A stretch of DNA of 64,000 bases, from assembly GCA_964030785.1 (NCBI GenBank), contig OZ034978.1:14746453-14810452 (forward strand), given 5' to 3'. The DNA is from Siderastrea siderea. Its lineage: Eukaryota; Cnidaria; Anthozoa; Scleractinia; Rhizangiidae. The first letter of the stretch is position 1; each line of letters starts with the position of its first letter. This document shows positions 1 to 32,300 of the stretch, piece by piece. The translations under genes were made by a program, and so were the position numbers. The notes beneath the pieces are model-generated. The model made no database searches. It was not told the origin of the DNA and saw only the letters and a program-made list of their open reading frames with translations.

Positions 1-441
1 GCCAGAGAGTAGCCAGTCCAGTCTTACAATCATAGCTAGCACCGATATAGTTCCATGTTCTTGGACGAAGTCCGCGAGTCCTCAGAACGAAGGCGCCTTT
101 GCCAGATCGCCGCACGAACTTCACATACAGCGTCCTTTGTCTGATGACCCACAGGCTCACGCCGGATCCCCGTGGTCTGTAGGAAAATATTGGTCCGCCA
201 CTTTCGGGGTAAACCCACGCCAGAAGGGTGATCGAGTTCCTAGTGTCGATACCCCCGTTGTTAGGAAAATACGTATAACTGCTACGACGACCGGAAAAGT
301 AAAATGAACCCCTCGGAAAACCATCTGGTCCACTAGCAAGACGTACACCCCTGGAACGTCCGGGTTGGTTTTTCCTTGGACCAACGTCGCGTCCTTGAGT
401 TTTGCTGTTAAGTGGGTACAATGCAACGGCACGTGGTGGTC
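1..441 (-). CDS. Gene A LamG9 domain (truncated by window edge)
   Basis: The exon starts at 441 after acceptor ccacag: PPRAVALYPLNSKTQGRD, GPDGFPRGSFYFSGRRSS, FPNNGGIDTRNSITLLAWVY, GSGVSLWVIRQRTLYVKFVR, then WNYIGASYDCKTGLATLW up to the window edge. An unusual Cys (YDCKTG) replaces the usual Glu/Gln/His. About 70 residues of the domain lie outside. Confidence 0.83.
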
Positions 442-3400
442 CTGTGGAAATAGATCGATTTATTTTCATTTCGCTGTTCAAATGAAGGAGATTGAATTTC
501 AGGTGATAAGTGAATCCCTTAGGAACTCTAAAGTAAGTTACAATGTTGAGGAAACTGTTATTTTAGGAAACAAGTCTTGGAAGCAAAAATTGCATCGGGG
601 AAACAAAAACACACCTCGTGAGAAAACAATTGTTTGCACAGTTATGTTTCCATCTTAACACACGAATATAACTACAGAAAATAACCAAGTGAAGTCCAAA
701 ACAAAATTATCACGGCTAGGAACTTACTTGTTGGCGTTGGAATAGTGGCTGAAAAGGAAAGAGAAATGTTTTCAGTTTAAACCATACAAATATCAGTCTC
801 TAGCTATTCACTCCTCTGTCATACGCTTTCGTTGTTAATCTAGTGTTCCTTGTTTGGTCTCAGTGATCAAGATTGACGTAGTCAAGGTCATGTGATACGC
901 CTTTTTTTTTGTTTAGGGCTTTGCTCTTCATCAGTGGGCACAAAATGAGCCTTGAATGTTGTTTCCCCACCTAAGGAGCTTAAAGGTCCTCCACTACTTG
1001 CCGGAGTAGAAGGCGTAGGGAATGAAGAACATTCGGAGTCCAATTAAGACCCACTGGCCAAAAAAATATGTGCGTTCGTCTGCAGAGATTTCTTGCTATG
1101 GGAATCTTTGAATTAAATATCAACAACCACAACTGCTCACATAGGGAATAAAGAGCAGGGAATGGGAATGAAGAACATTCGCAGTCCAATTAGGACCCAC
1201 TGGCCACAAAAAATATGTGCCTTCTTCTGTAGAGATTTCTTGTTATGGGAATCTTTTAATTAAATATCAACAACCACAACTGCTCACATAGAGATAAATG
1301 ACACGACAGTGACCTTTAGATCGCACTACAAATATGATATTTTGTACAGTTAGAGCTATCAAATTTGAAAAGAGCTACTTTCCAGAACCTTTTATGCGTT
1401 TTATCAACCAGTAGACTAAAAGGATAGCACGAGATAATCTCAAGCATGGGCACATAGATTGAACCGGACTCGTAACGGCACTTCCATCTTAAAGTAACTA
1501 ATACTGTACACAACGTGAAGTGAAACTTACGTCTAGGCGTTGGTTTAACAGGTTGACATACTTTCTCCTTAATAGCTTTAACCACTTTGCCAAGGCGACT
1601 AAAACCAGCAGTAAATATATTGAGGGCGCTTGAGGCAATTAGCTGCAACTGACTCCTTCTGTAACCAGAACCGACACCCAAGGAGAATATTTCCACCCCA
1701 TCTCTCCTGAGCCTTGATGCAGGTCTTCGCACACGGTCCGAGGAGGCGCCATCGGTTATGACAAGCAGAGCCCGTTTGCGTCCACGCATGGCTCGCCGGC
1801 GGAAGAGCCGTCTTCTAGCATTACGTAAGGCCCTACCAATGTACGTACGGCGTCTTCTGTATCGGTACCTGTTAAAATGAAAATAAATGTTGGTTCCTTG
1901 GCTTCAATTGTTCTCTGAGGTAACATTACCACTTTTGCACCTAGGCGAGAATAGGTTGTAGTGTGACTGGGTTAAAATATGGCAGACATCGCAGGACTGA
2001 GATTGGGATCAGAGAAGAAGATGTGCAGTGACTGTAGAATCAAATATCAAATCTGCCAAGCTTTGGAATCAACAGAAATCAGAGTTTTAGATCAGTGATG
2101 GAAAGATATACTTCGCCGTGACGTTTTGGCTGAGGAGGTACGAATTGTCTTCTGATCTCCTCAATTTTTTCTTGAGACGATTTTCACGAAGTCGTTAAGA
2201 AGAGAGATACGGAAGGGGATGTTAAGAATAAATGAGGATGGGTGGAGGAGCTGTTTGAAAGGCTATTGATCTTAGACAAACCTGATGCGGCCAATCGCTC
2301 TCACAACTTGTGTTCGTGAACTGTATCTGTTGAAGCCAAATATGACTCTTGATCGAGAATGGAACACCATCACACCAACTCTAGTTTCTCGTGTAGACAG
2401 CGGAAAGAAGCTGACAAAGGACTTCAGAAAGTCAGTGACCTTTCGGAAGTTCTTTCGCCCGACACTCCGAGAGGCATCGATAAGAATACCAAGGTCCACG
2501 CGAGATCTACAAACTGAAGAGTAAGGCACAAACTAGAGTAAGGTACCTCTGTTTCGTTGTTAAGACTGTAGCGGAAATAAATACAGGCTTCGTTAGATAA
2601 GCAGAGGGCAAACAAGAAGATCGCTTGTCTGAACATAGGTTAGAGATTTTAAGTCCCGATGACATGCGGCGAGACACTTAAAACGATGGGATGCGATAGT
2701 TGCCATTAAATGGAGGGACATGCAACAAATGCTAAAAAGCACATTTGACCGCTTACCCAAGTGCGCCAATGTGCAAACTTCTAGTTACTACAGTGCAAAA
2801 ATATATGCGATATTTTACCTGGTGATGGAGTCGGTGGAAGAGTAGGAACTGAAAAGAAAGCAAAATCCATAATTGAGTAAAATTGTTTTTGGAAATTATA
2901 TATTGCTTGCCACAATAATAAGCGACTATAATACTTACATCTCCACGATTTCATTTCAGCTCATTTAAATAGACTTCTAGATTTATGTAAGAATCCACGT
3001 AGATTAATAGATCAGAATCATTGAACGTAACACGCGAAAGAGACTATGGAGTTATATACATCTAGTCATCCCCTTTCTCCTTTGTTTCGTTTAATACTGA
3101 CTTTTACACTTCGTTTGATAGAATGAAAGAAGATTTTATCTTTCAAATAAAAATCAATACGTAGAGCAGTTGATCCCGGCTAACACTCAACATGACTATA
3201 ATACTTTAAAATGTACAAAATAGCGACTACAAGACCACAATAAACAAAAAGCAGCACTAACTTGGACGGAAGCATTTCTTCTGTAGTGCAACAATCTCTG
3301 GTCGCGTGAGTGCCACGTTGAAGATCTGCAAACAAGCCAGTCGTCCACGAAACACACGACGACTTCCCGGCCTCTTACCAATGATTATAGGGTAATTAGT

Positions 3401-6400
3401 GGCAAGCCCATTCCTGAACTTCCCAACGTTTCGCTGCGCCACTGGATATCTATTAATAAACAAGGTTGCCAAACCAGTCCGGTGGTTATACGTAGCTGCA
3501 ATGTAGTTCCACGTCCTTGGCTTAAGCCCGCGACCAATCAGCGGCTTCACCCTACGGCCAGACCTTTTTCGTGGCATCAACCGGAAGTAGAGTTGGTTCA
3601 GACGCGTTATCCATAGATGCACGCCCCATCCCTTTGGATTGAAATGGACTAAAGGTCCTGGAGCTTCCGGGAACACCCAGAATATCATCGTCAACGAATA
3701 ACGCGTGTCAAGACAACCGTTGTTGGGAATGATAGCATAGCTTATTCTTCTTCGTCCCCTTATTCTCGTTACCCCAGGGAAGAAGTAAGCCCCCTGTGGG
3801 TGTCCGTCAGGTCCTGTGATAAAGGAAACCCCTACAAGTCGTGCTGATGGGTTCTTGTACTGGCTAATGTCTCCGCCTCTTACGGCGCTAGTGAAGCCAT
3901 AGGTGGCCACAGCTCCCCTGGATAAAATCACTGAAGGAAAAAAAAGTTTTAACTTGTAGTCTATGTAGAACCAATTACAGCAAAAAAAGAAATGGTTGTG
4001 TGAAACACTGATACCCGTCCTACAAGGAGAAACCAGTGAAAGAACGCGCGCTTACGTTTTCTTGAGTGAGGTGTACAATGTAAGTGCACTGAAGGAAACA
4101 AAATGACAGGGTGTACAAGTACTTGTTCAACTCTGCTTCTAATCAACTCAACTTAACAGTCGCTCTTTCACGTCATGTGGGCTAGTAGTTAGATTCCACG
4201 CCTGGGAAAATAAGTGGCGAAGCCCGAAAACGAGCGGGAAGGCTAGAGCATGCCACCCTGAACTGGCGGTCACCATTAGCTACGTCACGAGGATTTTGCT
4301 ATTTTAGGTCAATTCTGTGCTGAAATCATTACCTAGTGCCTTTACTCGTACACAAAGTGCTCCTGTAGTATTATGAAGAAGATATCAAATGAATTTTATC
4401 AGCGACAGCTAACCATTATTTTTTGGTGACTTTTAAGAGCATAGCATCAAGGCTTGAAAAAATTGGCCCAATTATTTCAAGTTTTCAAACCCTTGCCATC
4501 AGTAGCAACAGAAGACAGGAAACAGTTTCAGTGCCGTAAGATAGTCTTAAATAAAAAAGCTAGACCATTATTTTTGGAATTCAGTTGATGCGAAGACACT
4601 TTTAGCTTTTTAAAAATATACTAAAATAGTGTGAGTCCCTTTACAATACGAAGTAACAAATACCATCTGGTAGAGCGTGGGATAATTGATTACTTTACAT
4701 CTCAACAAAGAAACGTTTTGACAGAAACGTTATTCTCTCAGAGAAAGTCATATCAATATATAACTGCAGGTACAGAAAATCTCGTTTGTCTTACCTGGAG
4801 AATGACACATCCTGTCCTTGACAGTCCTTACAATGCTCATCAAGCTACGACTATTCACAGAAAACACGTGATACCGGTCGGTAGAAATCTTCCTCAAATA
4901 GTTCACACTAACACGACCGACTCCCACAGTATACACCTCTACTCCCACAGCATGCAGGATCCTTGCTGGCCGGATCACATTATCACGTGACGTACCGGTG
5001 GTGACAAGGATGAGCACCCTTCTGCGACCACACTTAGGCTTGCGGCGGAAGAGGTACCTCTTAGTGTACAGGAGAGCTTGAGCTGTTCTCCTTCTTCTTC
5101 CACGCAGAAGCCTCAGTCTTCCGACTTCACGGTAAACCTGCGCCCTGCTGTGAGATCTACGGAAGCCGAACACAAGTCGCTGCCTTGAAGCGAATAAAAC
5201 CAAGCCTATTCTTGTTTGTGTCCTCTGGACGTCGAAGCGTCTCACTGTCTCCTTTACGTATTCGATGATGCGTAGAAACGTCGCTCTTCCGACTTGTCTG
5301 GATCCATCGATGAGAAAGCCGAGATCAATACGGGCTCTGCATACTAGTGATTAGGAGAAAAGGATTTCAGACTGGGAAAATTGAAGTTTAAGACGGAGTG
5401 GAAACGACAAACTAAATTGCAACCAAAAATAAATCACCTGGTTTGATCAAACAACATCGTGGATGTATTATTGTATAAAACGTTTATACTCACTTCTTGG
5501 AGGTGGAGTTGGTGCTGGAGTTGGCGGTGGTTTCGTGGGCGGTGGTCCTTCAATTAAAACCATACTTGTTTCATGATTGTCAGACTTTCATTAGATTTAA
5601 CCAGTGTCTCAAATAGAACGAACACGCCAAAAAAGAGAAGGCAACAAAAAGTTAAACGAGCGAGGACTGGAAAAGGACGCCGGGGGTAGTCCCTTTCTCT
5701 TCACTCGCCAGTCGCCGTAGTCTCTTTCCTAAATCCCTGCTCATTTATATTTTGCGCTTACTTTCTCTTTCTTGCGAGTTCCCACTATGTTGATTTTGCA
5801 GGATAAACTCTTGTGCCTTTTAATATCAATTACGAAACACCTTAAAGGGATTTCAGTGTTCCAGGAACGTCATAGCCATTTGCTTTTTGGCAAATATGAT
5901 GGATAGGAATACCATTAAACTCTCGGATCAATGGTCCATTTTCAACTTCACCGAGACCACTGGATTAAGGGACAAAATACGCATTTCTACAGGGTTAGCC
6001 TCAATCTCAAGTAAAATATTCACAAATACTAGTGACAAGATAAACTATTCACAACTCTGTGTATTGTTTCATTTCAAATTTTAGCAATTTATTGCTGGTA
6101 TTTGTGAGTATTTTATCTCAGATTGGGAGTAACCCTGCAAGAATACGTCCTTAGTGTTTTTATTCAGCGGTTGGTGATCTCAAAACTAGATTATTTAACG
6201 TGCACAGTTTTAACTACACAAGGACAATGTGAAATTTTCAATAACAATAATTGGTTAGATTAAACCTCCATATTGTATATGTACAATATCATTCATCTTA
6301 CCTGGCAGGAAACACTTTCTTTTGGCTTCAAAAACTTGCTTTCTGTTTAAGGCAACACTATAGAGCTGCAAACAGAACAGCCTTCCTCGGAGATATCTTC

Positions 6401-9400
6401 GACTTCTCCTGGTTGCACCCATTCGAATTGGATAGTTGGTAGATAGACGTATTGTACCCAACCGACGCCTTGCCACCGGCTGTGAGTTCACCCACAACGT
6501 AGCGATGCCACTCCGCTCATCATATGTAGCACCGACGTAATTCCACGCTCGGTACTTGAGCCGCATGCTTCTCACAGGCTTGGTCATGCGTCCATTGCGG
6601 CGTACAAAGCGCGCGAAAAGTTCCCGCCGACCAGTCGTCCACAGGTGCACGCCAAATCCATTAGGGTTGTAATTGACAATAGGGCCTGCAAGCCCCTCAT
6701 GGTACACCCAGACCAAGATGGTTATAGAGTACCTGGCGTCCAGACTCCCCGTGTTAGGGATTTCCACGTAGCTGGTCCGCTTTCCGTAGAATATACTGGA
6801 ACCGTCTCGGCGACCGTCAGGTCCTGGGCCGTATCTAACGCCTACAACTCGTGCGCTTGGGTTCTTTCTTCGACTGATGTCTCGTCCACCTCTCGGCCGA
6901 TCAAGTGGATAGACGGCCAAGGTTCTGGGTAGAGGTACTGTTTTTAACAGAAAAACGTCAATCATAGAATAAATGCATGGCTGAAATGACATATCCTGTA
7001 CCAATAACAGAACGGGCCACTTCCTAGTTGCCTCAGGTTTCTTTATTAAAGTAAGGCGGTAGGCCTAGTCTGGTGCGAAACATTCACACGAAAACGAGCT
7101 TTTTGCCTTTATAATATAGGCTTAAACCTGTGCTCGCTCTGGTTGGCCAGAAACCATGCTTTATCAGATTATAAAACAAGGATTTGCCTTTTATATTTGT
7201 TTATTTGTTGACAAAAAGAATATCATTTCAGCTTGAAGATTGTTCGTTCTGATTATGTACAGCCACTAATGTTGTGATATGAAGCCTCGACATTGAAAAC
7301 AGGGGCTTTCTTCCTAAATTCCACAAGGGTTTGCTGTGAGCCTCTGCGTCACTGAGACAATTTTAACAAAGGATATGTAAGTAAAGATTGGTTAATGAAA
7401 AGCTCTGCACCAGCACTGCAATCAGTAAAGGGGCGAAAGGCAACTATGAAATGGACCAGTTTCTCTGACTATTGAACACGGTACAACATAAATAAAAATA
7501 ATTAATAAGAAAAAATTATAGGAAATCACTTACCTCTTGGCGGTGGTGCTAAAAATAAAATGAGTAAACGAGGTTAGTAAATAATAAACAAACCGACATG
7601 AGGTTAACCTTTTAAGCCCTAACAGTGACGAAAATGAAATGTTTCTTTACGCCATCACTGCTTGTTCAAACATTCAAGCGAGGAGACCAAAGGAAACAAT
7701 CACCAAAGATAAGATGTCTTGAAGGGTTAAGAGAGATGTAATATTTAGCAGCATATCACGAGCATGGGATAAAGACAAAAATTGGGTCCCCAATGGTAAC
7801 CCATGACCTTCCGTGCACCGGTCGGATGCTCTGACCAGTGAGCTTAAGGTAGACTCGTGGCCAGGTAGGTAGGTCATATTTCCTTGTTTCATTGTGAGAA
7901 GCGTTCTACCTACTGCTAGGATATTTCGTAACCGTAATTAAAATTTATGATTTCTCTTTGTCTATTCCACATAAGGTTGATGGCACACCCAAGTTAACTG
8001 CAGTTACAAAAGCCTTGTCTTTGTCATTCAATGAAATACTGATCGATCTTTTGTTTTGTATATAGAGGCCCTTTTGATGATATGGTTTGGAATGAAAACC
8101 GGAGCATTAAAAGTTGATTAGAATTGCAATAATTAACAGAATACTTCAATCGTTAAACGTTCAGCTTAAAAAATCACACGAAATAATGAAACTACATTCT
8201 CTCTTTGATGATGACTTACGCAAGGGTTACCAGATTTGAAACGTCGGTCACCGATAACAGTCCTTTCCAGGACTACACTCACGCGGACGATCAGACACAA
8301 TCTACTCGTGACATGACCCCTGGCTTCAAAACATTTCACATCACTGCTACATTCACTATCTTGGTACCTTTGGCGCTTCTCACACAAGTTTAGGGGGGAA
8401 AGCCCTGGCACCGTCGCTAAGACGAAAATCACATTACAGTGAACTTACTTGGTATCCGCTGACAAGCTTTGGTTTTAATCTGCTTTATTACTCGTGCCAG
8501 CGATCTGAACGACACTGTAAATACATGACTGCTATCGGAAGCTATCTGTCTCAGCTGAGATTTCTTGTATCCTCGTCCAATTCCAAGCACGAACACCTCA
8601 CAGCCAGTACCGCGAAGACGGCGAGCTGGCGCGCTTACTCTGTCTTGGGATATGCCATCGGTAAGGACTACAGCCACTCTTTTTCGACCCCGTGCGGCTC
8701 TCCCCCTGTTGATAAGATAAGATAGGAGATGGTTGGTGATGTGTTATCGTTAAAACGATTGGATGATGTGTAGATAAAACCTTGAGTTGACTGTTTACAC
8801 GATTATGTCACACAGTAATTTCATGCGGTGAAGTAAACTGGGACGTTTTAGAGGTAAAGTGTCGTAGTTGAAGCAATAGGAAGTGTCTAAAAAATTTTGT
8901 ACAAAAAAAAAATAAATAAAAAATGGAATTATTAATTTCTAATAGCTAAGTTGTTACAGCATCCGTTGATTGTGCAGCAGGTCGTGGTTTCGACTATCGC
9001 CGGAGACTCAGACTACCTTTTTTGTAGTGCCACTGCTCATAATAAACTGGATTAGTTTACACGACCGAACTTAACATTTACGGTTCTTCTTTTTGTCATT
9101 TTGCATATTAATATTATCCCACGCTCGTGACAAACTGAATATTCCATCTTTCTCATTTCTTTCCAAGCTTAAAATTTACCATCTTTCTTTCTTTTTTCTC
9201 ACACACGGTGTTTCGACATTGCTGATCCTAGCAGTATGCAGGACGAGTGTCACAACGAACTCAGTAAATATGGCCACGCTCGCCACGAGTCTCCCAGTAG
9301 CTCAGTGGTTAGAGCGCCCGACCGGTGTACGGGAGGTCATGGGTTCGATTCCCGTCGGGGACTCAGATGTTTTTCTTTGTCCCACGCTCGTGACAAACTG

Positions 9401-11304
9401 AATATTCCATCTGTCTTATTTCTTTCCGAGCTTAAAATTTACCATCTTTCTTTCTTTATTTGCATATTATTGTTGGCAATCACATCGTAAGCGATCACTC
9501 CTAGAAATCTTCTTATCTTAGACAACACGCACTTTACAGAACCTTTACCAGATTCAACGTTTTAGAACTTGGAAAGAACGAAATCTTCATTACCTGTAGA
9601 GGTACCGTGTGGCAAATGACAGTGCTCTTCCGATCCTGGTGCCTCCTCGAGGGTACCGCAGGTTATCAATAACCCTTAAGATGGCGGCCCTGGTGTAGTA
9701 TCTGTTGAAGTTGAATATGGGTATGGGTCGGCTCGCGTACATTATGACACCAATGTGGGTTTCTCGGCGAGAGATGGGGAAAAAGCTAACCAGGGACTTG
9801 ACGAAGTTCAGCAGCCGGCCAAAGTTTCCCCGGCCGTAACGTTCAATACTTGAGGAGCCATCAATGAGAAAACCCAAATCCAGGGCAACTGCACAAACTT
9901 AAGATATGGATAACAAGAAGGACCATTACTTAGATCTTGTATACTTGATAATAAAATAACTGCAGGCGTCTTATTGGCTTCACTACGGTGAAGGGTATAG
10001 CCATTGGTCAGTATTTTCGCCTCAGTAGTCAATGATTATTTATTCTCGTTTTAGAAGGAGGCCGTCGTTGAGCGAAAGAATGAAGCGAGATGTGGATGGG
10101 TATATCAGGGAGATTCCAACTTCTTCCCATATTTTAGGAACGATTATGTCAATGCAAGTCTTGGGCACATTCCGAAAATGTACGTGCATGTTGCTTGATT
10201 TTGTTCTTTACGTTTCTTCATTTGGGCTACTATGGAGGGAAATTATTGCACTCCAAACTGAACTCTTCTTAGTGAACCATCAAGATCCTTAGCAGTCCAC
10301 AGTTAATCGTATTCTCCTTTTAATAGTTGTACCTGTTGATAATTATTGAGCAAACTATTCAACAAACCTGGTCTCGGAGTCGTTGGGGTTACGGGTGTTG
10401 TAGGCCGAGTAGGTACTGAAAATCGATCAAAAACCGTATTAGAGTTGGCGAATTGGCTAATTACCAGACTTCACAGCTGCGAAACAGGCTTGAACGTAAG
10501 GAAGATCGTTGGATAAAACTGCATTTTAGATCAATTATGGAAATGGAGAATACATCTTGGTATGTAAAATACTGCTGCTCACCTGGTCTGAAACACTGTG
10601 TCTTCTTGGCGACAATCTGAGCTCGCGACAAGGCTACGTTGTATACCTGTAAACACGCTATACGTCCACGGAAAACGCGAGTATCCCCAGGCCTCCGGCC
10701 AACGACAACAGGATAATTAGTAGCCAGGCCCAATGCGAATCTTCCGACATTTCTCTGAGAAACCGGAAGTCCATTCACCCAAAGAGTCGCAAGTCCTGTG
10801 CGGTGATCATACGTGGCGCTTACGTAGTTCCAGGTGAAGGGCTTAATGCTTTTACTGGTTAGCGGCTTCACCCTCCGGCGCGAGCCTTGCCTTGGCATTA
10901 ACCGGAAGTAGAGCTCATTTGGGTGAGTCAGCCAAAAATGGACTCCCCATCCTTTGGGATTATAGTGCAGTATGGGTCCAGGTTTTTCCGGGTACACCCA
11001 AACAATGATTGTTATGGAGTAGCGAGTGTCCAAACAGCCGTTGTTAGGGATCAAAGCATAGCTCCCTTTTCCCCGTCGCCTTTGTCTCCCAGGGAAATAA
11101 TAGGCCCCCTGTGGATGTCGATCGGGACCTTGAATGAGTGAGACGCCAACAAGTCGGGCTGCTGGATTCCTGAACCTGCTGACGTCACTTCCCCGTGACG
11201 CGCTTGTGAATGGGTAAACCGCGACGGCTCCCCCTGATATGATAACTGAAGATAAAGGAGAGTCACGTTAAAAGTGCAACAATGTAACGAAAAAGGGAAT
11301 GAAC

Positions 11305-11342
<38 letters not shown>

Positions 11343-14300
11343 TTTATCCAGGGAGCCCACTCGCCTTGGCGGTTTTCAGTGGGGCCCTGCAAATTATAAT
11401 AAAAATAAAAAATTAAAAACTAAGAAAAGAGATAAAAATTGATATTACAATACAAAACTAATTTTAAAATACTTTAACAATTAAATAGGGCATAATTTAC
11501 AAAGTTTTAAGCTTTGCCTTAAAGGAAGACAATGATTTGCTGTTTTTAATGTCATTGTCTAGGATGTTCCAGTCCTTAGAGGCTTGATAAATGAAAGTTT
11601 GCTTGCCCCAACTGGTACGCACGCGAGGAAGGTGTAAATCATTGCTTCTGCGAGTTTGATAAGAATGAAAACTACTTCTGATATATCAAGAGAGAACATT
11701 CGCACAAAGAAAAATGGCGTAGCAATTGGTCTCTGACCATGCAACGTTTTTCCAACAACCTCTGCGACCTTTCATTTTTACGCTACTGGCGAAAGTTTCA
11801 GGGTGTTGTTTGTTTCTCAACATTTCCAAACATGAAATATGGATTTTTTTCCCTAGTTTCAAGTGTGGAAAATCGAAGGGAAGAAAGAGTAAAGCAACAG
11901 CGTTTTCTGTTATCCGCTCGTGGCCTATTAAACTGATATATTTACCTGGCCAGCTGCAAATCCTGTCCTTGATTATCCGTGTGATTGATACCAGTCTCCT
12001 CGCAGCGACATTAAACACATGTCTTGACCCCGTGGCAATCTGCAGCAGTGATTGCCTCCGCACTCTTCCAATACCAATCGCGTATATTTCAACGCCAGAG
12101 GCAAACAAACGCCTTGCGGGACGTCTTACTCTGTCACGTGACTCCCCGGTTGTCAAGACGATCAGAACCTTCCTTCGACCGCAGCGTGACCTGCTTCTGA
12201 AGAGATACTGTCCTGTGTAGGTTAAGGCTCTTCCCAGGTATCTAACGCCCCTACCTCTCAGTTTCATCCGCTCCACAACTCTGTAAATTTGTACTCGAGC
12301 GTAGGTTCTTCCAAAACGCATGACAAGTGTGGGTCTAGAGGTGTATTGGACGATGCCGATTCTTACTCTTGTGCTAGAGACTTCAAATCGTCTGACCGTC
12401 TCCTTGATGTACTGCAGAATCACACGGGAGCTGAATCTGGCAGGCGATGCATCAACGAGGAAGCCGAGATCAATTCGTGCTCTGCAAACTAAGTGAGGTC
12501 AGAAAACCAAATTAGTCTTGGCTGTCATACTGATAAGCCCGAACTAGTAGCACCACAACAAGCGCTTTTTTATAGCTGTTACAGGATTTGCTTGTCAACA
12601 CGCATCAGGGTTCTGGCCAAATCTATACGCACATTGTGGCATTTGCTTCAGTTAGTTTCTTTTTCACTACTATGGTTTTCGATCTGTCTGTTTATTGATT
12701 GATTGATTCCTTCCTTCCTTCCTTCCTACCTCCCTCCCTCCCTCCCTCCCTCCCTGCCTTCCTTCATTCATAATACGGTACAAATAACGTCTTACCGCGT
12801 GGAGGTGGTGTCGGGCGAGGGGTTGGTGGTGTCGGCGGTGGTGGTGGAACTGCAAGGAAATTTGTGTTAAAGATATAAACCACTGTAAATTGAAACTATG
12901 CCTTGGTGTTAATACGTGTTACAGCTAAGCTGGATGAAATGTCAGGTGTAATAGGCATTGATCTCCATTATTACGTTTTCATTTGCAAAACCACAAGCGC
13001 GGCAGGGTGCTTTTTCAGAGGGCCTAGAAAGGGAGCTCGGCATAACAGCTAACACGAAAATTTTAGGCCATTTAACAGCTAACAGTAAAAATATTCGCTG
13101 TAACAGTTAAAATAAATAGCTGAATAAAAATTTGCACAAAAATCGAGATAATGGCCTTTTTTCGCATGTTAATGGCAATTTCACCAGTAACATCACTTCT
13201 GCAGTTTCAGTTATCTATTTTCTCGTTTTATTTAGTATCTAGAATGTTGTAACACTTAACTGTAATTTCATATATAACAGTTAACAACAAAAATTCGGGC
13301 TGTATAACACTTAACAGTAAAAAATATATGGCCCATAATATCTCACAGTAAACCCCATCTAGGCCCTCTTTTTAGAGTACAAGGCACACGTGGGGCGACA
13401 ATAAAGTTTTCTGTATTTCACCCTAATCAAGAACTTAATATCCTTCTTCAACAGATTCATTGTTAAATAATTTATTATCATAAATAAAAAAAATTAACAA
13501 ATAAATATTGGCTTTGGTACTTCAACTAAAACTAAACAGAATAGATGGAAAAAGCATCAGTATATCTGAAAATAACCGGAAATAAAACCCAACCTGGTAA
13601 AAAGCACTTTCGCTTGGCCTCGTCAATTTGTTTCCGGTTGAGCGCCACACTGTAGACCTGCGCACAAAAGAGTCTTCCACGGAAGTAACGCCTGTCTCCA
13701 ACACGAGCACCAAGCCTTATGGGGTAATTTGTTGACAACTGTATACGGCCTATCCTTTTGTAGGCCACTGGTCTCGAGTTAATATACAGCGTCGCTATGC
13801 CTGTTCTTTCGTCATACGTTGCACCAACGTAATTCCATGCCTTGTAATTTATTCGTCGGCTTCTAATTGCTGTTATAAAACGCCGCGAGCGCCTCACGAA
13901 GCGCACGAAAAGTTCGCGTCGTCCAGTCATCCATAAATGGACGCCAAACCCTCGTGGGTTGTAATTGAAGATAGGGCCGGATACACCCTCGTGGAACACC
14001 CAAATAAGAATGGTTATGGAGTATCTAGCATCCAATCGTCCAGTGTTAGGGATTTCAACATAGCTGTTTCTTCGGCCAGAGAACTGTAACGATCCATCCC
14101 GGCGGCCGTCTGGACCGAGGGCAGGACCCACACCCATTAGAGTTGCTGTAGGGTTTTTACTTCGGCTGATGTCTTTTCCTCGTCGTACTCCATCCAATGC
14201 ATACACGGCTAGAGTTCTCGGAAGAGGAACTGCAAAAAGATAACATCTTTTTAGACTAGAGGAAAGAGACAACTTAAACTTACACTGCTCTCATCACGTC

Positions 14301-17300
14301 GTTGGGTATGGTCAAGCTGTGGAGGACCTAAGGGAGCTAGTTGGACCCGGGGGCCTACCCTCCCACCTTGTGCGCCCCCGTTTTATTGCTCCGAGATGGG
14401 AGCTTGAGTTCGGGAGGCCAGCTTGACATTCACATTTCTATCTCTTGACAAGCCTATCCCTTCACATCTCCGGTTGAGGTCATTCATATCATTCTCATTG
14501 AAAATGAGAAAAACATTACAGAATTCGTGAGAAAAGCAACATGGTGAAAACTCACCTCTTGTTGGTGTAGGTGAAGGCGAAACTGAAAAGGAAGGTACAG
14601 GCACGATAAACACCTTAAAGGTAACGTTATTTTGGACAATCTACCACAAACAAACTAGTTTATCAATCAAGATCAGAGCGAAGAACTCTCTAAAATATTG
14701 GAGTATGTATACATCTTGTTATAACTTACTTTAAGTTTTGAAATATAGAGACGTTTTGCGTTTGCCAGCATTGGTGTTCAGTTTGTGGCAATTTATCACT
14801 AGTTCAGCTAGCTTATGATATAACTAATCAAAACAATGTTGCCTGTACGGTGTATCAGAATTTCTTCGATTTGTTTCAAAAAGTACAAACCTGTAGGAGT
14901 GATAATCTGACAGATTTTTGTCCTTATCGCCTTGGACAATGTTTTCAGTCCTCTGAATGATACAACAGAAACGTGCTGCCTATCGCTTGCAATCTGCAGC
15001 AACTGACGTCTTTTGAGTGCTTTTCCAATACCCACGGCAAACACCTCAACGCCTCTTGCTTTCAACAACAACGCTTGTCGTGTCACGCGGTCCTGTGATA
15101 TACCGTCTGTGAGCATGATAAGAATACGCTTACGGTTACGGCGTCTACGTCCACTAAAGAGGTATCTCCTGGTGTAGGCCAACGCCTTGCCGATATAGGT
15201 ACTGCCACGAGGGTACCGCATGCTGTCAATAGCTTGCGTGACGTGCGTGACAGTATTAAGCTGGCCAAATCTAAATAGCGGGATGGGCCTCGTGGAGAAG
15301 AGAACAGCACCGACGCGTGACTGGGTTCTTGAGATAGGTAGTGTGCCAACGATGGTCTTGATGAAGTTAAGCATCAGTCTGAAGTTGCCTCGGCCGTGGT
15401 ATTCTATGCTTCCAGAACCATCGATCAAGAAGCCTAGGTCTACAACGGTTTTGCACACTGGAATAACAAAGAATAAATCAGTTTCATACTGGCACGTGAA
15501 TCTCAACATCGATCACTCCTTTACTTTACCTAACAGTGGTTTGAGGTCAGTTCTACTCAAATCACAAACAACAAATCAACCACACCGTTAGTCTAGCAGT
15601 CCAACTTCCGCTAATAAACAACTCCTGTAGTCGGATGCTTGTTCTGAGCGGGCACTCTGTCGTGGTAACAGCCATTTACACACCGCTACAATTAAAGCAC
15701 CCAATATGAAGACGCCTCCTAAGCGAACAGTTAAATGTGGTCCCAAGGTTATTCTCTTACAGGGGAGTCAATTGAGAGGCCTATAAGCCAATATCCCAAA
15801 GCACTTACTTTCACAGAAAACATCTATACCGTTAGTCCTATTGACGAGCCAGTATAACATTTGGGTAATTATCTAACGGGAACTAATACAGGGTAGCATC
15901 GCCTTAGAAATTAAAAAACAAAATGTTTGAAATGTTGTATATATTATTTTTCCCGAAGTTTTAAGAGATTCATAGTTCTAATTTTCCAATTGATAACTTT
16001 TACTTATAAATTCTCAAAGTATGTCATACGAATGAGATAGCTAATCGGTGCCTACCAGGGAAAAGATTGAAAGACAAGCTAGAACTTTGAAATTTGGAAT
16101 TTAGCAACCGTATACGCATCCCAAAGTATGACATGTACGAGCGCGTTGTTATGTTATATATAGCTAAACAAAGGGATTTTCCTATGTTTTTCCGAAAAGA
16201 AAATCACATCTGAAAACACTCGCCCACCGGTTGTTGAAATCCGCTTGCAGTTTTTCTTGATATTAAACACGCATCTCTTTCTTAAGAAACATGGAGTAAC
16301 AATTTTTTTTATTTGGAGACTAACATCTATACGCAGAAAAACAATCTGGCGAGTTTGAGGCAACAAAATTCATACCTGGTGGTGGAGGTGCTGGTGGTGG
16401 CTGTCCTAGAGCAATTAAGAGAAAAACATCGAGGTTAAAAAAATTCAGGCTTTTATTGTTTTGTTCTTATCCCCCAATTAACAGGGCCTGTTCACAGGCT
16501 ATACCTATCTGTACGCCCTGTTGGCTGTTAGTTCATACAGCTTGAAAAAGAACGTGCAACGAATCCATTATAGGAGAGGTTAATTCCCAGTAAGATATTC
16601 TCCTTTATAAGCCATAACATAAAGTTGTATTAGGGCAGACTTACTCTTGAAACATCTCTTTGCAGCATTCATGATCTGCTTCCGGTTCAGCGCCACACTG
16701 TACACCTGAACACAAGACACCCTACCCCGGAAATATCGCCGATCGCCTATCTTTGCGCCCATTCGCACCGGGCGATTCGTAGCCAGGCGAATCCGTCCGA
16801 TGTTAGTCCGAACCACAGGTCGGTTGTTCACCCAGAGAGTTGCCATGCCTGTGTTTCCATCGTACGTCGCACCGATGTAATTCCACGCCTTGTAACGTAC
16901 ATTTCCGCCGTGGGTGACGAGTGGCGTAGTAAAACGCCCATTGCGTTTCACAAACCGTGCAAAGAACTGTCGTGGTCGTGTCATCCAAAGATGGACGCCC
17001 CATCGCGGGCCACGATTGTAGTTGAAGATGGGTCCCGAACGTCCAAAATGTAGTACCCAGGCCAGAACCGTGATAGAATTTCTGGTGTCTAGCTTCCCTG
17101 TATTTGGGAACTCAATGTAGCTGTTTTTATTCCCAAAGAACTCCGTAGCTGTGTTCGGCCATCCGTCAGGTCCTGGTCCAGTTCGTACACCAACGAGTCT
17201 GCCGGTTGGGTTACGATTTCTGCTGACGTCACGCCCTTGGTATTGTTCGTCTAGAGGGTATATAGCAACGATGCGAGGAAGTCCTGGAAAGGAACCAATA

Positions 17301-23300: not shown

Positions 23301-26300
23301 TTCTCAGGTTGTGGAGTACGCTTGGATAGGGTCTGAAGTTTTTGCTATCCGTTCCGTATACTCACTACTGCTGCCTCTCTTATATTTCTTCTGCTTCCCA
23401 AGGCCTCACAAATAACGTTATGACTTCAAATCCATATTTGAAAACTTTTTGGTCTTCCAAAAAAGACTAACATTTAACACGAATCAACTTACTTGCACGG
23501 AAACAGAACCTCTTGAGTTTCCTTATCTGATAGGAATTTAACGCTAGATTGTAAATCTGAAGACACGCGATACGACCACGGAAATGCCGGGGATCACCGG
23601 GTCTACGTCCTGATACCGCCGGGTAATTTGTCGCCAGTCGAATCCTTCCGATATTTCGCTGCGTTATAGGAATGGAATCCAACCACATCGTCGCTAATCC
23701 TGTGTTATAGTCATACGTTGCTGCAATGTAGTTCCACACTCGTGATCGAATCCGTCTCGCGATCCTTTTTGTGGTCTTCCGATCGCGACTGACAAACTCT
23801 GCGCGGATTACTTTACGGCTGATCATCCGAAGATTGACTCCGACACCCCTCGGCATGTAATGGAAGACCGGTCCTGCACTTTCGGGCATCAGCCATAAAA
23901 GGATTGTGATGGAGTTCTGTGTATCTAGGCGTCCCGTATTAGGGAAGTATATGTAGCTGTTGGCGAACCCTTGTAGTTGGTAGGAACCTGCAGGAAGTCC
24001 GTCCGGTCCGTTTTTGGACAGCACATTTACAAGTTTCGCGCGTGGGTTTTTGAATGGTCCAATGTCCTTTCCACGATTGATACCATTCAGTGGGTAGATG
24101 CCCATTGCTGGAGGAGGAACTGAGAAAAAGAACATTTTTTTCAGTTGACTTATCAAGACCGAACAGTTTCTGGCTGCTCTCCAACTTCATCATTCATTGC
24201 ACCAAGCCTTATCACGTTCCATGAGAGGCAATCCAGAATCCGGAATCGGGTAAATTATTTCCTAGCCGTCTGGAATCAGAATCTAGGGCTTTGGAATCCG
24301 GAATTCAGCCCCCAGAATCCGGAATGGAATAGCTGGAATCTAGAATACAAACTACTGGACTCCGAATCAGTAATCACGTTATGGCTTGGAATCTTGAATT
24401 CTGCGGTGAGGAAACCAGAATCCAGTTAAAGGAATCCGGATTCCACAATGAGGAATCCGGAATACATCTGCCATACTGTCAGTGACAGCATAGTAATGGC
24501 AACGAGTGATAAAAATACAAAGGATTCTTACCTAGCTTTTGCGTTGGACTTGTCGGTACGGTACTAGGTTCTGTAGGCAACAAGCAAACGTAGTAAAAAA
24601 ATTTCTCAATACACCCTTATACTCTATGCTGACAAAGTATGCGAACCCCTTAGGAGGAACGTCGTGCCCGGCAAGCGCATCTTTGAAAGGACTTAGTTGA
24701 GGAAATGGTTACCCAAAGTAAAATTTATGCTCGAACCACAACAAACGGCCCATTCCTTTCAACAAATGTTTGTATTGGTTAGGTACCCCAAAGCCCATTA
24801 CGCTTGTACAAAGTACTTGCACAAAGAAGTCACTACTTGTGCAATCGACCGAACGAAAAAAAATAGAGAGGGAGAAAACACCGCAAAGGAAGAAGAGGCC
24901 CAAACTTACTCGTTGGTGTTGGTTTTCCTATCGGTTTAGCTGCACATATTTTAGCAACTAATTTTTCCACAACAGTTCTCAGACCCACTCTTGAGCCCGC
25001 GTTGTACACATGGTAACGGTCATATGCCATGGAAGACAGATATCTACTACTTCTTTTTTGACTTATTCCAACGGCAAAAATCTCCACGCCGGCTCGCCTC
25101 AGCATCTTGGCTGGTCGCCTTACGCTGTCATATGAACGTCCACCGGTGAAGACAACCAGGACTTTGGACCGTGCAAACGATCGCCGCGTTCCCGCGTAAA
25201 GGTATCTCCAGGCAAAACGTAGGGCGCGTCCAGTGTAGGAGCGTCCACGTGGAAAGCTTATCTTTCTAACCGCTCTTAGCACGTCGTATTTGCGCGTAAG
25301 ACGCTTGAAGTTAAAGAATGGTGTAGGACTTGTTGAGTAAGTGATGATACCGATGCGAGTGTAGATTCTGGAGACAGCAAAGTATCTGATAAGTTGGTAA
25401 ACGACTCTAAGGATTCGGTTAAATCTGGAGCGAGTGTTAGTGCCGTCCAGGAGGAATCCAAGGTCAATGCGAGCTCTGCAGACTGAAGAAACAAAACAAT
25501 TAGCTCTGTCGGGAATATATGCGAAGGGTCAATTTCACCGCATTTTTTTTTGCCTTACACCTCTAACATGCAGCTACCAAACACAGAAATCCCTTAACCT
25601 ACTTGCACATGCTGGCGTCCGATCCAGCACCCAAGATGTAAAGTGCATCTGAACACACAGGAAACAAAAACTGGGCTAAACAAACTTCAATAGCGTGAAA
25701 ATTTATTTTAATGTCCGCGGTATTTCTCATGACGCCGGTCGACGTTAATTAAATAAAAATACAGCAAACCAGCGAAGTCCTGAGATATTCAATGTTTTAT
25801 GTCTTCACCTGCAACAACGGTCAGAGTGACGTTAGCGAAGATCACTAAAACGTCAACAGTGTACCACCCTGGTCATGAGAACACACAACCAAGAAATCAC
25901 AGTCTTTTTTTTTCTGGGTCTTTCTTCTTAAATAAGAGACAAGCAAAGATTGTTTTATGTTGACCTCGCAGATTAAAAGAAGTCTACAATCAAGAGCGAA
26001 ATTCAAGAAGATTTCCTTACTTTTCCCAGGTGCCAATGTTGGTGGTGGAGTCGGTCGTGGAGGAGTGGGGTAAGCTGATGAAAAATAACACGCAATATGT
26101 TAGGCTAGCCATAAACGAAACGAACTTAGCAACTAAGGAAATCAAGAAAATTGGAGATGATTAGTGCTTATCACCACCAGTGAATTTTTTGCCTTATTGT
26201 TAGGAGTCACCATCAACAGTTCCCGAGCATCGACAGCTAGCACGGCGTAGCTAACACTCAGTCTTAGTTTTGTCAGAAAGAAAGTTGCAATTGGGTACCT

Positions 26301-29300
26301 AGCATTTGTGTTATGTGGATGGTAATTGGCAAGAGACAACAGTTTCACGTATTGCGTGCTCTGTAATTCTAGTTTGACCGATAAGTTGACGGCGTTGAGT
26401 CGTGTTTCGTTAACAGTGTGGAATTAGTTAGCTGGAGCAACATGGTTCATTTAAATTACCTCACAACAAGCGTTAATCATGGAAAATTTATGCGTAATTA
26501 AAAAAGGAAAACAAGAGACGTGTTCAAAATAACGTAGTTCCGTACTCGATACCTTTAAAGCAAAGCCGTTTCGCGATCCTGATAAGCCGCATCGGAAGTG
26601 CTACGTCATAAAGTTGCATACACGTGATCCAACCCCGGAAGTAACGACGATCTCCTATCCTTGCCCCCATCCTGGCGGGATAGTTTGTCGACAAGCGTAT
26701 TCTTCCAATGACTTTAGTAACGACTGGTTTCTCGTTTACGTACAGTGTTGCAATTCCCGTCCTTTGATCGTAAGTCGCACCGACAAAACTCCACGAGCGC
26801 CGTCTGAGTCGTCGGCTGACCAGCGGTTGGGTGAAAACGCGCGTGCGTCGCACAAACCGTACAAAGAGTCTGCCAGCGCGCGTTATCCAAAAGTGGACTC
26901 CAAACCCCTTGGGATTGTAGTTGAAGATAGGACCGGCACCTCCTTTGGGGTTTACCCATGATAAAAGTGTTATTGAGTTCTGAGTATCCAGCTTCCCTGT
27001 GTTAGGGAACTCGATGAAACTGTCCGGCCTTCCTAGGAAACTATACGAGCCACCGCGTCGTCCATCAGGTCCTGGGGCTGGTCGTACGTTGTTTAATTTA
27101 CCCGGTGGGTTTTTATTGGGTCCGATATCGTAGCCCCGATATTTTACGGTCAGAGGGTAGAAAGCGACAGCATCCGGGAGGCCTAAAATAAAGGTTGGTG
27201 AACACAATAAATCAAGTTTGATACATTGCAGAGAGTAATTACCTTTACTTGCAGGACTGTCTAAAAGCATGCTGCAAAGGATTAAAGACGCGCCATTCTC
27301 TTAACCTAGCACAAGATGCCAGTTAAAGCTTGTAAATTAGTTCAAGTTTCGAAAACCAAATCAAACACAACATAGATTTCTTAAAACATATCACCCACTT
27401 ATTGCAAGCTGGATCAACTCAGTGGTCATAATGACGGATGGCTTCCTGTTCACCAGATTTCGAGCAGTCTCTTTCATTTTCCAAATCTTAATAGCGCAAA
27501 ACGACGCCTCTCCAATCGGTTCTTGTATAATAATTTATACATAATTTAGATACTCTGCTAGTCGCTGGATTTGAGAAAAATTGGCCGACTGTTCGCAGTA
27601 AGGATTTTCAGATATTCGGACACTCACTCAAAGAAAAGAATAATAAATTGATACCTTGAACTGAATTAAAGGCAGCCACGAATTAACCAATAGTTGAACA
27701 AGTTGGTGTATCAAACGAAACCTAAGCATATTTAGTTGGTGTTAAAAAGTGGTGCTCTATCTCCATGTTATTTTCTGTGGAGTAGAGGACCGGGCAGTAC
27801 TTACGTGGGGGTCTTGTTGGTCTTATTGTAGGTCTGGTTGTTGGACCTAGAAAGGCAAATGGTATAATTTTTCAAATACGATATTGTATATATGGATATT
27901 AATACATACAGACTGCGAGTGCAACAACTTAAGAAAGCAAAAGATCTTTTGGAAACAAGAGACGGCACTGTCTATCTTACACCAAAGAAAACAGAAAGCA
28001 ACATCAAAAATAAAAGATGTGAAACCTTAAAGGTAGAACCAACACAAGAAGACAATCCAAATGACCTGAGGACGTGAAACGAGCTACGAAAAATGTGTAA
28101 CTCCTTTGTCAATCTTTTCCTCCCTGAAAGCACTAAACAATTTAGTTGCCGTTTCTTGCATATCTTAACAGAACAATAAGCTAGTTTTACTAAGAAATAT
28201 ACTTGGGAACTTTGAAACTTGCAACCCGCACTTAGCAAAACATCTCTACGCGGCAGGTAGAAAAAACAAAAAACAGGAAGAAATAAAACTCACGCGCTCG
28301 GAAGCAGACTTTTTCAGCTCTCTTTATCTCCGGTCCAGACAGCGGTACGCTATAGACCTGCATGCATGAAATCCTTCCACGGAAGTACCTCAAATCGCGG
28401 GGCAACGCACCCATTCTGACAGGCCGGTTGGTGGCAAGACGAATGCGCCCAATGTACACGGACTTCACTGGTCGAGAATTTCGCCAAAGGGTCGCAATGC
28501 CAGTCTTTTCGTCATACGATGCTCCAACGTAGTTCCATTGCTTGGGTATCAATCTGCTGCTTATGAGCTGCCGAGTTGGTCTCCCTGTGCGGCGCACAAA
28601 TCGAACGAACAGTGTGTTGGGCCTGACAACCCAGAAGCGAACTCCTCCAGGGGCGAAATGGAAGATTGGTCCGGAACCCTCCGGGTATACCCATGCAAGG
28701 AGGGTCAGTGAGTAGTAGGAGTCGAGCTTTCCGTTGTTAGGGAAGTTGATGTAACTGGTTTTGCGACCCGAGAAGTAGTAGGAGCCGTCAGGAAGTCCGT
28801 CGGGGCCAGATGCAGGTAGGACATCACGCAACTCTCCCTCGAGGTTTTGACTTGCGCTGATGTCCTTTCCCCTTGTTTTCTTGCTGAGCGGGTACAACGC
28901 AACAATACGAGGAAAGCCTATCAAGGAAAAAGAGACGGATTAAATCAGCCCTTTTCGCAGCGTAATAAGAGTTTTGGGTTTTGGGAAGAGTGTCAGACGT
29001 CATCCATGATCTATTAATTCTAAAGTAGTTAGCTCACAGTGGCCACTACGATAGAGAACAAGCGCAGTGTTGAACTGATTTGGTATGTTAAGCAAGGTTT
29101 TCTTGAGCGTATGACAGAATTGAAACCCAGTAACATATTAAGTGCGCGCTATGCAAACGCAATGTTGATATTATTTCCCCGGGGAATTACGAGATATTTT
29201 TACGAATATTTTGTTCGTTTGAAATAACAATAACGAAAACCAAGATACGCTGATGCATTTATCATCTTGGAGGAGGAGCACCAGGAGCACGAATCACAGC

Positions 29301-32300
29301 TGGAAGTACTTACGTGGTCTTACTGTCGGTTTTGTTGTAGGCTCTGAAAGTAAATGGAAAACAAACAACACTGTCTCAGTTGGTTTTGCATTAAGATTCT
29401 CGAAACAAACTCTTTCATCAAAATTAAAAACAACTAAATGTACAATGCGTACTTGTCGTTGGTCTGGTGACTGGACACAAACAGACGCGATGGGTGGCTG
29501 GCACGAGATTTCCTCCAGTCCCTGTAAGTGAGCAAAGATAGAAAATTATTACGCTTTCTACTAGCCTATTCCCGGCTCTCAGATAGTAGGGACGGCGAAA
29601 AGTAAAAAGAAACTGCGAAAATAATGTGCGGGATTTGGAGAAAAAGTGTGTCGGCTCCCCTCAGTCTCTGCGTGTTTTTTGTGCTGGTTTCCTCATTTAC
29701 ATTTCCTACTATCCCGGAGCCTGGAACACGCCGGTTAGTATTTTAGCTCTTTCAGCTTTTGTAGGCAATAGTGTTCACGCTCTCAGATATGAAGTCTCTG
29801 GTAAAACTGACGGACAACACATTAACACATAAACCATTTTTTTGGCACTGGCGTTAAGAACTTACAACTGATATCGTAAGGCAGAAGAAAATGGACACAG
29901 CTTTACCTAAACAAATTGCGTTCCTGAGCTCGTTCACAACAATACCGAGGTGCGTCCAGTCCGCGGTGAAGATATGGTTCTTTCGAGGGGGGGATGCCAT
30001 GATGTCTAACTGACGACCATTTATGTACCGCCCCACCCCCAAACAGTAAATCCTTACACCACGGGCTTTTAAGGCGTTTGAAGGCGCTGCAACGTCATCC
30101 ATCGAGCTACCGTCGGTAATAACAACGACCACCTTAGTGGTCCTTGCACGTCGAGGGTTCTTACGAAACAGTTGATTTTGGGCCATCAACAAGGCCCTAC
30201 CAATACGGCTCCCCGATTTCGGGTACCTGACTCTCCTATTTAGCCTGTTAAATACAGCTCCGTTGTTTGTATAACTGTTAAAGCCAAACAACAGATGGGG
30301 ATTGGTCCCAAACACGATAGTCCCCACTCGAGTGTTGGTTCGGGAGACTCGAAAGCCAAGGATGACGTCACGAACGAAGTCGACCAATCGGCGGAAATTT
30401 CCGATCCCGTATCTCTCGACGCTGGCGGAACCATCGATCAAGAAAGCGAGGTCTATGGCTGATTGGCAAGCTGTATAAATAAATATCAAGAAACAGAAAG
30501 TATTATGAAGCAAGTTTGGACCCTCTAGAGGCAATTAACCTACAATCGGTGCCTGTAGCACATGTTGGGGACTTAAGGTGAAATAGCAGGCAAGAGAAAC
30601 ACTTGAGACGAACGATTTATACACCGATCACTTCGAAACTTCAACATCCCCCTCAACGGCAACCCCCCGGCCATTTGAACTTTTGAAGGTTGGATCGTTC
30701 AAATTCCCTCCCCTCGGGGCAAAAAAATGCCCCACCAATAAATTTTAGTACGGAAATACCTCTCCTCAAAGACAAATTTCGTCTTTAATCAAACACTGCT
30801 CACAATTTTCAGAAAGAGATACCTGTATGATGACACCTTCAAACTTCTTTTGAAGACCCTTTTGAAAGAGGTATTCACTAACAAAGGCGAAATTCTATAT
30901 TGTAAATCCATCAAACCTTGCAAAGACCGAAAAAACTCACGGGAATATTACGCCAGAGCAAGAGATAAATCCGGTTCAAATTCCCCACCCTTCCAAGGCA
31001 ACGTTCAAATTCCCCCGTTCCCGGGCATACTGCACATTCAAATGCCCGGGGTTTGCCCATGGGGGAATGTTGAAGTTTCGAATCGATTGGCGCATATGCA
31101 GGCTCCCATGCAGTCCTTTTTAGGGGAGGAGGGTAATAAGACTCCCTTTAAAACGACTGTGTGGAAGGCCAACAATTAAGTCTCTGAATCGAAACTTACA
31201 AATACAATGCTACATGTATGTGAGGAGGCTTATTGCAATGTTCAAATTTGCGATTAAATGCAATAGAAACATCAACTGATAAACCGTTAGGATTAGATTT
31301 AGAGCCCCCTTTTTTATCAAATATAGGCAACTGTACTCCAATAAGCACCATCCTTCTTATAAGATAAGAGCCCATCTTTGCCTCCAACACTTCTCCCATT
31401 ATTCAACAAAACTTCCCAAGCTACCGTCACTATTAGCTGGAACAGTTCTGTCAAAAATGTATACGTTTATATTTAAGATTTCCTGATAAGCTAGGATTTG
31501 CCATAATCGATTTTCACTTACACTGGAGTAAAAGGAAATTTGGTATATGATAATCAGTTGCTCAATAATGTAACCTCAATATAAAATTAGCTGTCTCCTA
31601 AAATAATGACAGTAATAATAACAATAATGATGATGACGATGATGATGATGATGACGATGATGATAATGATGATGATGATGATGATGGTGATCATGATAGT
31701 AAACAGTCCCCCACACAGTCAGTAGCAAATTTCTGAGTGTCCTGTACTTATAATAGCATGTCTCAATATCTTGACATTTGACAGGCCACATGTGCATCTG
31801 ACATTAGTCCAACTTTAATTCAGGGATAGCCAAGCAACAGGCATGCTTGCTTGATTATCTCTGAGACAAAAGAGGGACTCAGTACATAGGCTAGAAATTT
31901 CTACTCTTGAACATTCTACAGCACACTCTTTTCCTTGTGCATACTTCATGAGTGTATGTGCAACATGTGATTTGCCACTTGCATAAAACATTCCCGAGAA
32001 AATGAAATAAAGAAACCTGGTCACAGACTATACTAATGCCGAGTGGCTCTCTTTTAGCTGAAGTTTGAGCAGTCACTGTAATCAGGTTGCAAGGTATAAC
32101 AATTAATACTTTCGGATTGTCTACTTACTCATAGGTCTTGTAGGCTTCAATGTTGCTAAAAAACGAAAAAGGAAAAAAAAGAAAGAAAGGTCTTGTTAGA
32201 GTCACACCACAACAGTGAGCAAATAAATGTTGCATTATTTCACTCCATTACAAAAGAAACACTCTATTTTGAATTCTCTTCTTATAGGAATGAGTTGTGT

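Follow-up and report, generated by a model that had tools for sequence, protein, structure and literature searches.

von Willebrand factor (vWF) carries three neighbouring A domains and no laminin G (LamG) domain. Arrays of von Willebrand factor A (VWA) domains with mixed states of the metal ion-dependent adhesion site (MIDAS) are already known, as collagen VI and vWF A3 illustrate. In the excerpted text of PMC3919171, most collagen VI VWA domains, N5 included, are described as lacking a conserved MIDAS, and vWF A3 as having the VWA fold and binding its ligand away from the MIDAS. VWA and LamG are combined in one extracellular protein in molluscan Pif and BMSP, with four VWA domains in tandem in bivalve BMSP, according to excerpts of PMC11291548. 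In this study, we analysed a 64,000-nucleotide stretch (hereafter the window) of the 831 Mb genome of the coral Siderastrea siderea, located at 14746453-14810452 of contig OZ034978.1 (C13). A minus-strand gene of the window, gene A, contains seven VWA domains with alternately intact and lost ("dead") MIDAS motifs. This alternation is best explained by the tandem duplication of a block composed of intact VWA, LamG, dead VWA, and LamG. The dead class is conserved in other cnidarians, and several of its members share a pair of extra cysteines with the LamG that follows.

Gene A resembles the N-terminal array of collagen VI alpha3 in being a string of VWA domains with MIDAS-less members; in gene A, however, the VWAs are separated by LamG exons. 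To our knowledge, collagen VI alpha3 has no interdomain VWA-LamG cysteine pair. The AlphaFold2 model of V4, the fourth VWA of the window, had collagen VI alpha3 N5 (PDB 4igi) as its best solved neighbour, with a template modelling (TM) score of 0.84, and its best sequence match in the PDB was also a collagen VI alpha3 chain (9han). The V4 fold matched vWF A3 as well, the likeness being that of the VWA fold. Pif and BMSP differ from gene A in carrying the chitin-binding domain CBM_14 and often only a partial LamG. Neither collagen triple-helix repeats nor CBM_14 gave a Pfam match in the 25 window stretches scanned, in which the gene ends were not located. No cnidarian VWA-LamG array with mixed MIDAS states was recognised in the literature searched (one open-access library). 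Excerpts of PMC3204972 describe four VWA genes of Acropora that are raised before settlement, two of them expressed in the aboral ectoderm, and excerpts of PMC4890752 a VWA/TSP-1 protein in the skeletal proteome; neither of these need correspond to gene A. Judging from the domains, a matrix or adhesion role may be presumed for gene A.

The seven minus-strand VWA domains (V1-V7) named in the initial annotation were all present, in the order intact, dead, intact, dead, intact, dead, intact. The outermost exon limits, 1531 and 30470, agree with the annotated ones. Pfam VWA (PF00092) was matched by all seven, each above 23.8 bits (in two exons for V5 and V7, whole for the other five), and Laminin_G_3 (PF13385) by G1-G8, each above 27.6 bits. 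The exons from V1 to G9 are in phase 1 on both sides with AG/GT sites, and they encode 3227 amino acids without a stop when joined; the joins were taken from the DNA sequence, and the best-scoring of alternative donors or joints was chosen by a script. The domains are listed below in the order of the gene. The VWA entries are based on Pfam, exon limits, and motifs (for V2, V4, and V6 also the cysteine columns), the LamG entries on Pfam and exon limits, together with the tree for G2, G5, and G7 and the cysteine columns for G3, G6, and G8, and the G9 entry on domain profiles and exon limits.

29907..30470, minus strand: V1, VWA, intact (DGSAS, Ser at the Thr position, TDG)
28294..28917, minus strand: G1, LamG (Laminin_G_3) exon
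26553..27182, minus strand: G2, LamG exon, sister of G14 outside the window
24910..25482, minus strand: V2, VWA, dead (DGTNT, TGG), without extra Cys
23493..24119, minus strand: G3, LamG exon, without extra Cys
16645..17283, minus strand: G4, LamG exon
14891..15457, minus strand: V3, VWA, intact (DGSGS, T, TDG)
13594..14229, minus strand: G5, LamG exon of the type found after V3, V5, and V8
11946..12488, minus strand: V4, VWA, dead (DASPA, Arg for Thr, TTG), extra Cys in CGRR
10583..11245, minus strand: G6, LamG exon right after V4, extra Cys in NNGCLD
8449..9897, minus strand: V5, VWA in two exons, intact (DGSSS, T, TDG)
6302..6937, minus strand: G7, LamG exon, in a clade with G5 and G11
4795..5343, minus strand: V6, VWA, dead (DGSRQ, Arg for Thr, TTG), extra Cys in CGRR
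3262..3930, minus strand: G8, LamG exon right after V6, extra Cys in NNGCLD
1531..2513, minus strand: V7, VWA in two exons, intact (DASRS, T, TDG)
1..441, minus strand: G9, LamG exon cut by the window edge, with 188 further bases outside

The MIDAS residues (D-x-S-x-S, T or S, and D) are complete in V1, V3, V5, and V7, whereas the final Asp is gone in V2, V4, and V6. Arg occupies the Thr position in V4 and V6; Ser is present there in V2, as well as in V1, which is an intact domain. The DxSxS and TDG/TGG/TTG states given in the initial annotation were read identically for all seven domains; the Thr position and the extra cysteines were not part of it. We infer metal competence and its loss from these motifs. 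Reading frames and splice sites are retained in the dead domains as in the intact ones.

Subsequently, stretches of 10 kb were fetched on both sides of the window and scanned with profiles built from the window's own domains. The array was found to extend about 71 kb past the window on the same contig, and 25 VWA and 28 LamG domains were counted on the minus strand at 14.675-14.777 Mb, exclusive of a divergent VWA at 43.0-45.6 kb of the window and a Laminin_G_3 match at C13:14658330-14658770, missed by these profiles. After V7 and G9, the order continues on the same strand with G10, V8, G11, V9, and onward. The states of the 25 VWAs in array order are idididi-ididddiiiiiiiiiiii (i, intact; d, dead; the hyphen marks the window edge); that is, V8 is intact, V9 dead, V10 intact, V11-V13 dead, and V14-V25 intact. 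Since V7 and V8 are both intact, the alternation is broken at the first VWA past the window. Over the 25 VWAs, 11 runs were observed against a shuffled mean of 11.08, and an alternating stretch of at least seven occurred in 10% of the shuffles. Within the window alone, perfect alternation of four intact and three dead domains is one of 35 possible orders, although this is a post hoc figure. The strict alternation described in the initial annotation thus holds for the seven domains of the window, whereas as a property of the whole array it was ruled out by reading past the edge.

It could be argued that gene A ends near G9/G10, so that one protein with seven alternating VWAs is encoded and the exons that follow are those of a different gene. 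The array is long, with 25 VWAs, and the exon joins are known from DNA alone, which leaves room for such an end. However, V7, G9, G10, and V8 have in-phase acceptors and donors and are spaced like the remaining exons, and even with a gene end at this point the trees described below would still give block copying as the source of the pattern. We regard this gene end as unlikely. V8 and the later exons are probably on the same transcript as V1-V7, as indicated by phase and splice sites.

VWA trees were constructed without the MIDAS columns, and the array-only tree also without the cysteine column; with the MIDAS columns removed, the metal state was unable to drive the grouping. V4, V6, and V9 formed a clade with 28 database homologues in two trees (98/96 and 100/99) and with one another in the array alone (100/98). 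V3, V5, and V8 also formed a clade in the array-only tree (98/93), and V2 paired with a database homologue, P0029 (100/100). In the LamG tree, which contained 27 of the 28 rows with G19 left out, G5, G7, and G11, the LamGs after V3, V5, and V8, grouped at 100/98, and G6, G8, and G12, those after V4, V6, and V9, at 100/99. Accordingly, the VWA and LamG trees together derive the window alternation from the copying of a block in which an intact and a dead VWA were already combined, and V3-G5-V4-G6, V5-G7-V6-G8, and V8-G11-V9-G12 seem to be repeats of a single unit. Furthermore, a larger copied block is indicated by the pairs G1-G13 (85/77), G2-G14 (98/95), and G3-G15 (93/85). If the LamG order is taken as the guide, V1 (intact) and V11 (dead) would occupy the same place in two copies of this larger block and differ in state, a correspondence on which the VWA trees do not decide. 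V2, V4, and V6 as one clade were not rejected (approximately unbiased test, p-AU 0.129), and a single loss for all dead domains is compatible with the trees.

These results bear on the possibility that alternation itself has been selected, with metal-binding and metal-free VWAs needed in strict turn and the dead domains serving as partners of the intact ones. The perfect order of the seven window domains and the conservation of both classes in homologues, shown below, would fit this explanation. However, the adjacent intact V7 and V8, the uniform stretches V11-V13 and V14-V25, and the chance-like number of runs do not, and the pattern is accounted for by the block copying seen in the trees. 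We consider selection for alternation highly improbable. Block copying combined with an old and retained MIDAS loss, these two parts taken alone, is in contrast an account that we hold with good confidence.

Next, the conservation of the dead class was examined. A search with V4 gave 29 homologues, all 29 of which lacked the MIDAS Asp; P0010 from Desmophyllum pertusum and P0028 from Actinia tenebrosa were among them. The named near relatives of the window proteins are stony corals and anemones (Desmophyllum, Stylophora, Montipora, Actinia, and Nematostella). Four of the homologues (P0001, P0007, P0018, and P0022) lack the N-terminal part, and DxSxS is unreadable in these. P0029, which groups with V2, was set aside for the residue counts; all 28 remaining homologues have Arg at the Thr position and carry the extra Cys, and their MIDAS Asp is replaced by Thr in 24 cases and by Ser in 4. 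With the V3/G6 query, 12 single-domain VWA homologues were scored and 11 were intact; P0101 is truncated before DxSxS, yet it retains T and TDG. Nine of the 12, P0101 included, fall with V3 or V8, and the eight complete ones of these are intact; P0109-P0111 fall elsewhere. Cochlins, P0135, and other later matches to this query were left unscored. The V4 and V3 queries favour query-like proteins, and the comparison thus concerns conservation within each lineage and not the domain order in other species. No orthologues of V11-V13 were found among the homologues retrieved.

Synonymous divergence (dS) was saturated in all pairs within V3/V5/V8, V7/V10, and V4/V6/V9, and therefore the proportions of nonsynonymous and synonymous differences (pN and pS) are given in place of the dN/dS of each class. 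For paralogue pairs, pN was 0.33, 0.35, and 0.35 in the dead class and 0.29-0.33 in the intact class, and pS was 0.77-0.85. The model of V4 showed a VWA fold with a mean predicted local distance difference test (pLDDT) score of 87.8 and a predicted TM score of 0.86. One might still suppose that the dead domains are decaying copies, each degenerating independently: the DxSxS part varies among V2, V4, V6, V9, V11, V12, and V13, the branches of V2, V11, V12, and V13 are long, and V11-V13, for which orthologues were not found, could still fit this idea. Nevertheless, open frames and splice sites are kept, V4 is confidently modelled as a VWA, pN is as in the intact class, and the same dead residues recur in 28 of 28 homologues, the conservation across species counting against decay for V4, V6, and V2. 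We give independent decay scarcely any credence. The dead class looks to be kept by selection. The proposal in the initial annotation that the dead domains keep fold and frame is thereby borne out; its view of the loss as selected stands as far as decay is concerned, and does not extend to the alternation as such, which the trees attribute to block copying.

We also observed extra cysteines. Besides the two terminal cysteines, V4, V6, V9, and V12 (4 of the 25 VWAs, all dead) have an extra Cys at one column, in the context CGRR in V4, V6, and V9 and CGRK in V12, just ahead of the strand ending at the former MIDAS Asp. Among the 28 LamGs, an extra Cys in N-x-G-C-L-D was present only in G6, G8, G12, and G15, each being the LamG directly 3' of V4, V6, V9, and V12, respectively. 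When the 20 VWA-LamG neighbours of the array were counted, four had both cysteines, 16 had neither, and none had one only (1 in 4845 as a bare count). Both are missing from the V2-G3 pair, even though G3 is grouped with G15 (93/85) next to G6/G8/G12, which is one sign of joint gain or loss. The LamG homologues were retrieved with a query that itself carried the Cys; 53 of the 59 scored have it, namely 53 of the 54 nearest to G6/G8/G12/G15, with P0136 from Nematostella as the sole exception, and none of the five nearest to other LamGs. P0025, a dead-class VWA, and P0050, a Cys-bearing LamG, may be neighbours, as the longest contig given for each has 7615 bases. In the V4 model, the Cys is residue 103, ahead of the strand 106-113, and hence at the sheet end away from the MIDAS; in that of G6, it is residue 70 in the loop between strands 62-65 and 77-87. 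A fold search with LamG gave only jelly-roll look-alikes (clostridial toxin binding domains and an arabinanase domain), which were not used. Taken together, these findings suggest that a disulphide between a dead VWA and the following LamG is likely. The structural or metal-free partner role that the initial annotation had suggested for the dead domains is plausible and would take a concrete form in the paired cysteines, though it is unproved.

From these results, the following history can be proposed. The tandem exon array, of which the window is one stretch, would code for a giant and probably extracellular protein of VWA and LamG domains. As every domain occupies one exon or two, with phase 1 at both ends, it could be copied without a frame break. 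Long ago, one VWA of the array would have lost its MIDAS by changes of Thr to Arg and of Asp to Thr, Ser, or Ala, and the block of intact VWA, first LamG, dead VWA, and second LamG would then have been copied in tandem, giving V3-G5-V4-G6 and V5-G7-V6-G8 and, outside the window, V8-G11-V9-G12. The alternation would be the footprint of these block copies and of the array end with V1 and V2, not a rule of the protein. The dead class, presumably retained by selection, would be a metal-independent spacer or docking unit, joined to the following LamG by a disulphide between the paired cysteines, and the intact VWAs would keep metal-dependent binding.

Several points weigh against this account. V7 and V10 stand beside V3/V5/V8 with weak support (75/82), and the seven dead domains come together at only 62/61 in the array-only tree, which makes a single shared loss no more than a possibility. 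The joining of V7, G9, G10, and V8 in one transcript is likewise presumptive. The cysteine pairs were copied with their block and perhaps represent two independent events instead of four; another lone Cys with no evident partner is present in 11 of the 25 VWAs, and an odd Cys is thus no proof of a bond. V4 and G6 were modelled as separate single exons, which give no Cys-Cys distance. The extra cysteines may instead link separate chains, or be inherited hitch-hikers of the copied block, as block-wise copying makes their co-occurrence partly a matter of shared descent and other lone cysteines exist in the array. Against this, V2-G3 lacks both cysteines as if they had been lost or gained jointly, and both are conserved in homologues in the numbers given above. 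We regard inter-chain or hitch-hiking cysteines as a serious contender, though somewhat the less probable side of the question. The whole chain from the array and block copying through an old, kept loss to a metal-free, Cys-bonded VWA-LamG unit falls, in our judgement, just short of an even chance.

Dead-class copies were also sought elsewhere in the genome. In the V4 search, in which 150 candidates were scored, V6 (181 bits, 55%) and V9 (161 bits, 48%) came first, followed by V3 and other array members; nothing off the array exceeded 86 bits, the value of the top off-array match at C13:1640373. Of the off-array VWA-LamG neighbours read (L025-L028), L025-L027 had neither the CGRR Cys nor the LamG Cys. 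In L025 and L026 (C13:19.35 and 19.37 Mb), a dead VWA lacking CGRR precedes a LamG that lacks the Cys; L027 (C13:1.64 Mb) contains dead VWAs but no LamG; and in L028 the VWA is intact and the LamG lacks the Cys. The dead motifs in L025-L027 are DASGD with TSS and DASAK with TGS. MIDAS loss is not rare among the VWAs of the Siderastrea genome. In two stretches of a cluster on C12 (L022 and L023), VWAs without a LamG match were observed. Separately, dozens of near-identical VWA matches at a spacing of 1036 bases were seen at C6:47448909-47507153 (plus strand), which is either a tandem array of very recent origin or an artefact of assembly.

A long composite query retrieved no full-length orthologue; the 12 proteins obtained were Stylophora pistillata LOC111338336 (P0030) and collagen-type proteins, mostly from fish. 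P0030 has a WSC-like domain (under the Pfam cut-off), five VWAs, and one Laminin_G_3, and by eye its third (ECSSS, TAS) and fifth (AGS for TDG) VWAs look MIDAS-dead. Unlike gene A, it has a single C-terminal LamG and glycine-rich linkers and, by eye, neither CGRR nor NNGCLD; it resembles the plus-strand neighbour gene of the window and not gene A. Three WSC-like domains, each slightly under the Pfam cut-off, were also observed in the window at 35289-35564 (minus strand), 57676-57975 (plus strand), and 60512-60865 (plus strand). Of these, the domain on the minus strand precedes V1 and may contribute to the N-terminus of gene A. Also upstream of V1, at 43041-45567 (minus strand), the divergent VWA mentioned above consists of three exon-like pieces, with EASAS for DxSxS and TDG retained. 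Between G3 and G4, inside gene A, a retrotransposon-like segment at 17572-22709 (minus strand) has an identical peptide at both ends, and by eye its long open reading frames (ORFs) resemble a tyrosine recombinase, reverse transcriptase/RNase H, and gag, as in a DIRS-like element. A large inverted repeat at about 54850-55918 contains near-identical ORFs at 54849-55205 (plus strand) and 55550-55918 (minus strand).

In this study, a suggested design rule, strict alternation, is replaced by a history of block duplication, and a specific, testable module emerges: an Arg-filled, putatively metal-free VWA with a Cys that has its partner in the LamG behind it. Its features are seen in stony corals and, partially, in an anemone. 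In its widest and rather doubtful form, this would be an ancient hexacoral module in which a VWA with an invariant Arg filling the metal site is disulphide-locked to the next LamG and recurs between metal-competent VWAs, one chain thereby combining metal-switched and metal-free rigid adhesive units. Follow-up is merited by the dead class, which is conserved, Arg-filled, and Cys-partnered; if the proposal is true, it would show a VWA converted from a metal-dependent adhesion site to a fixed structural joint.

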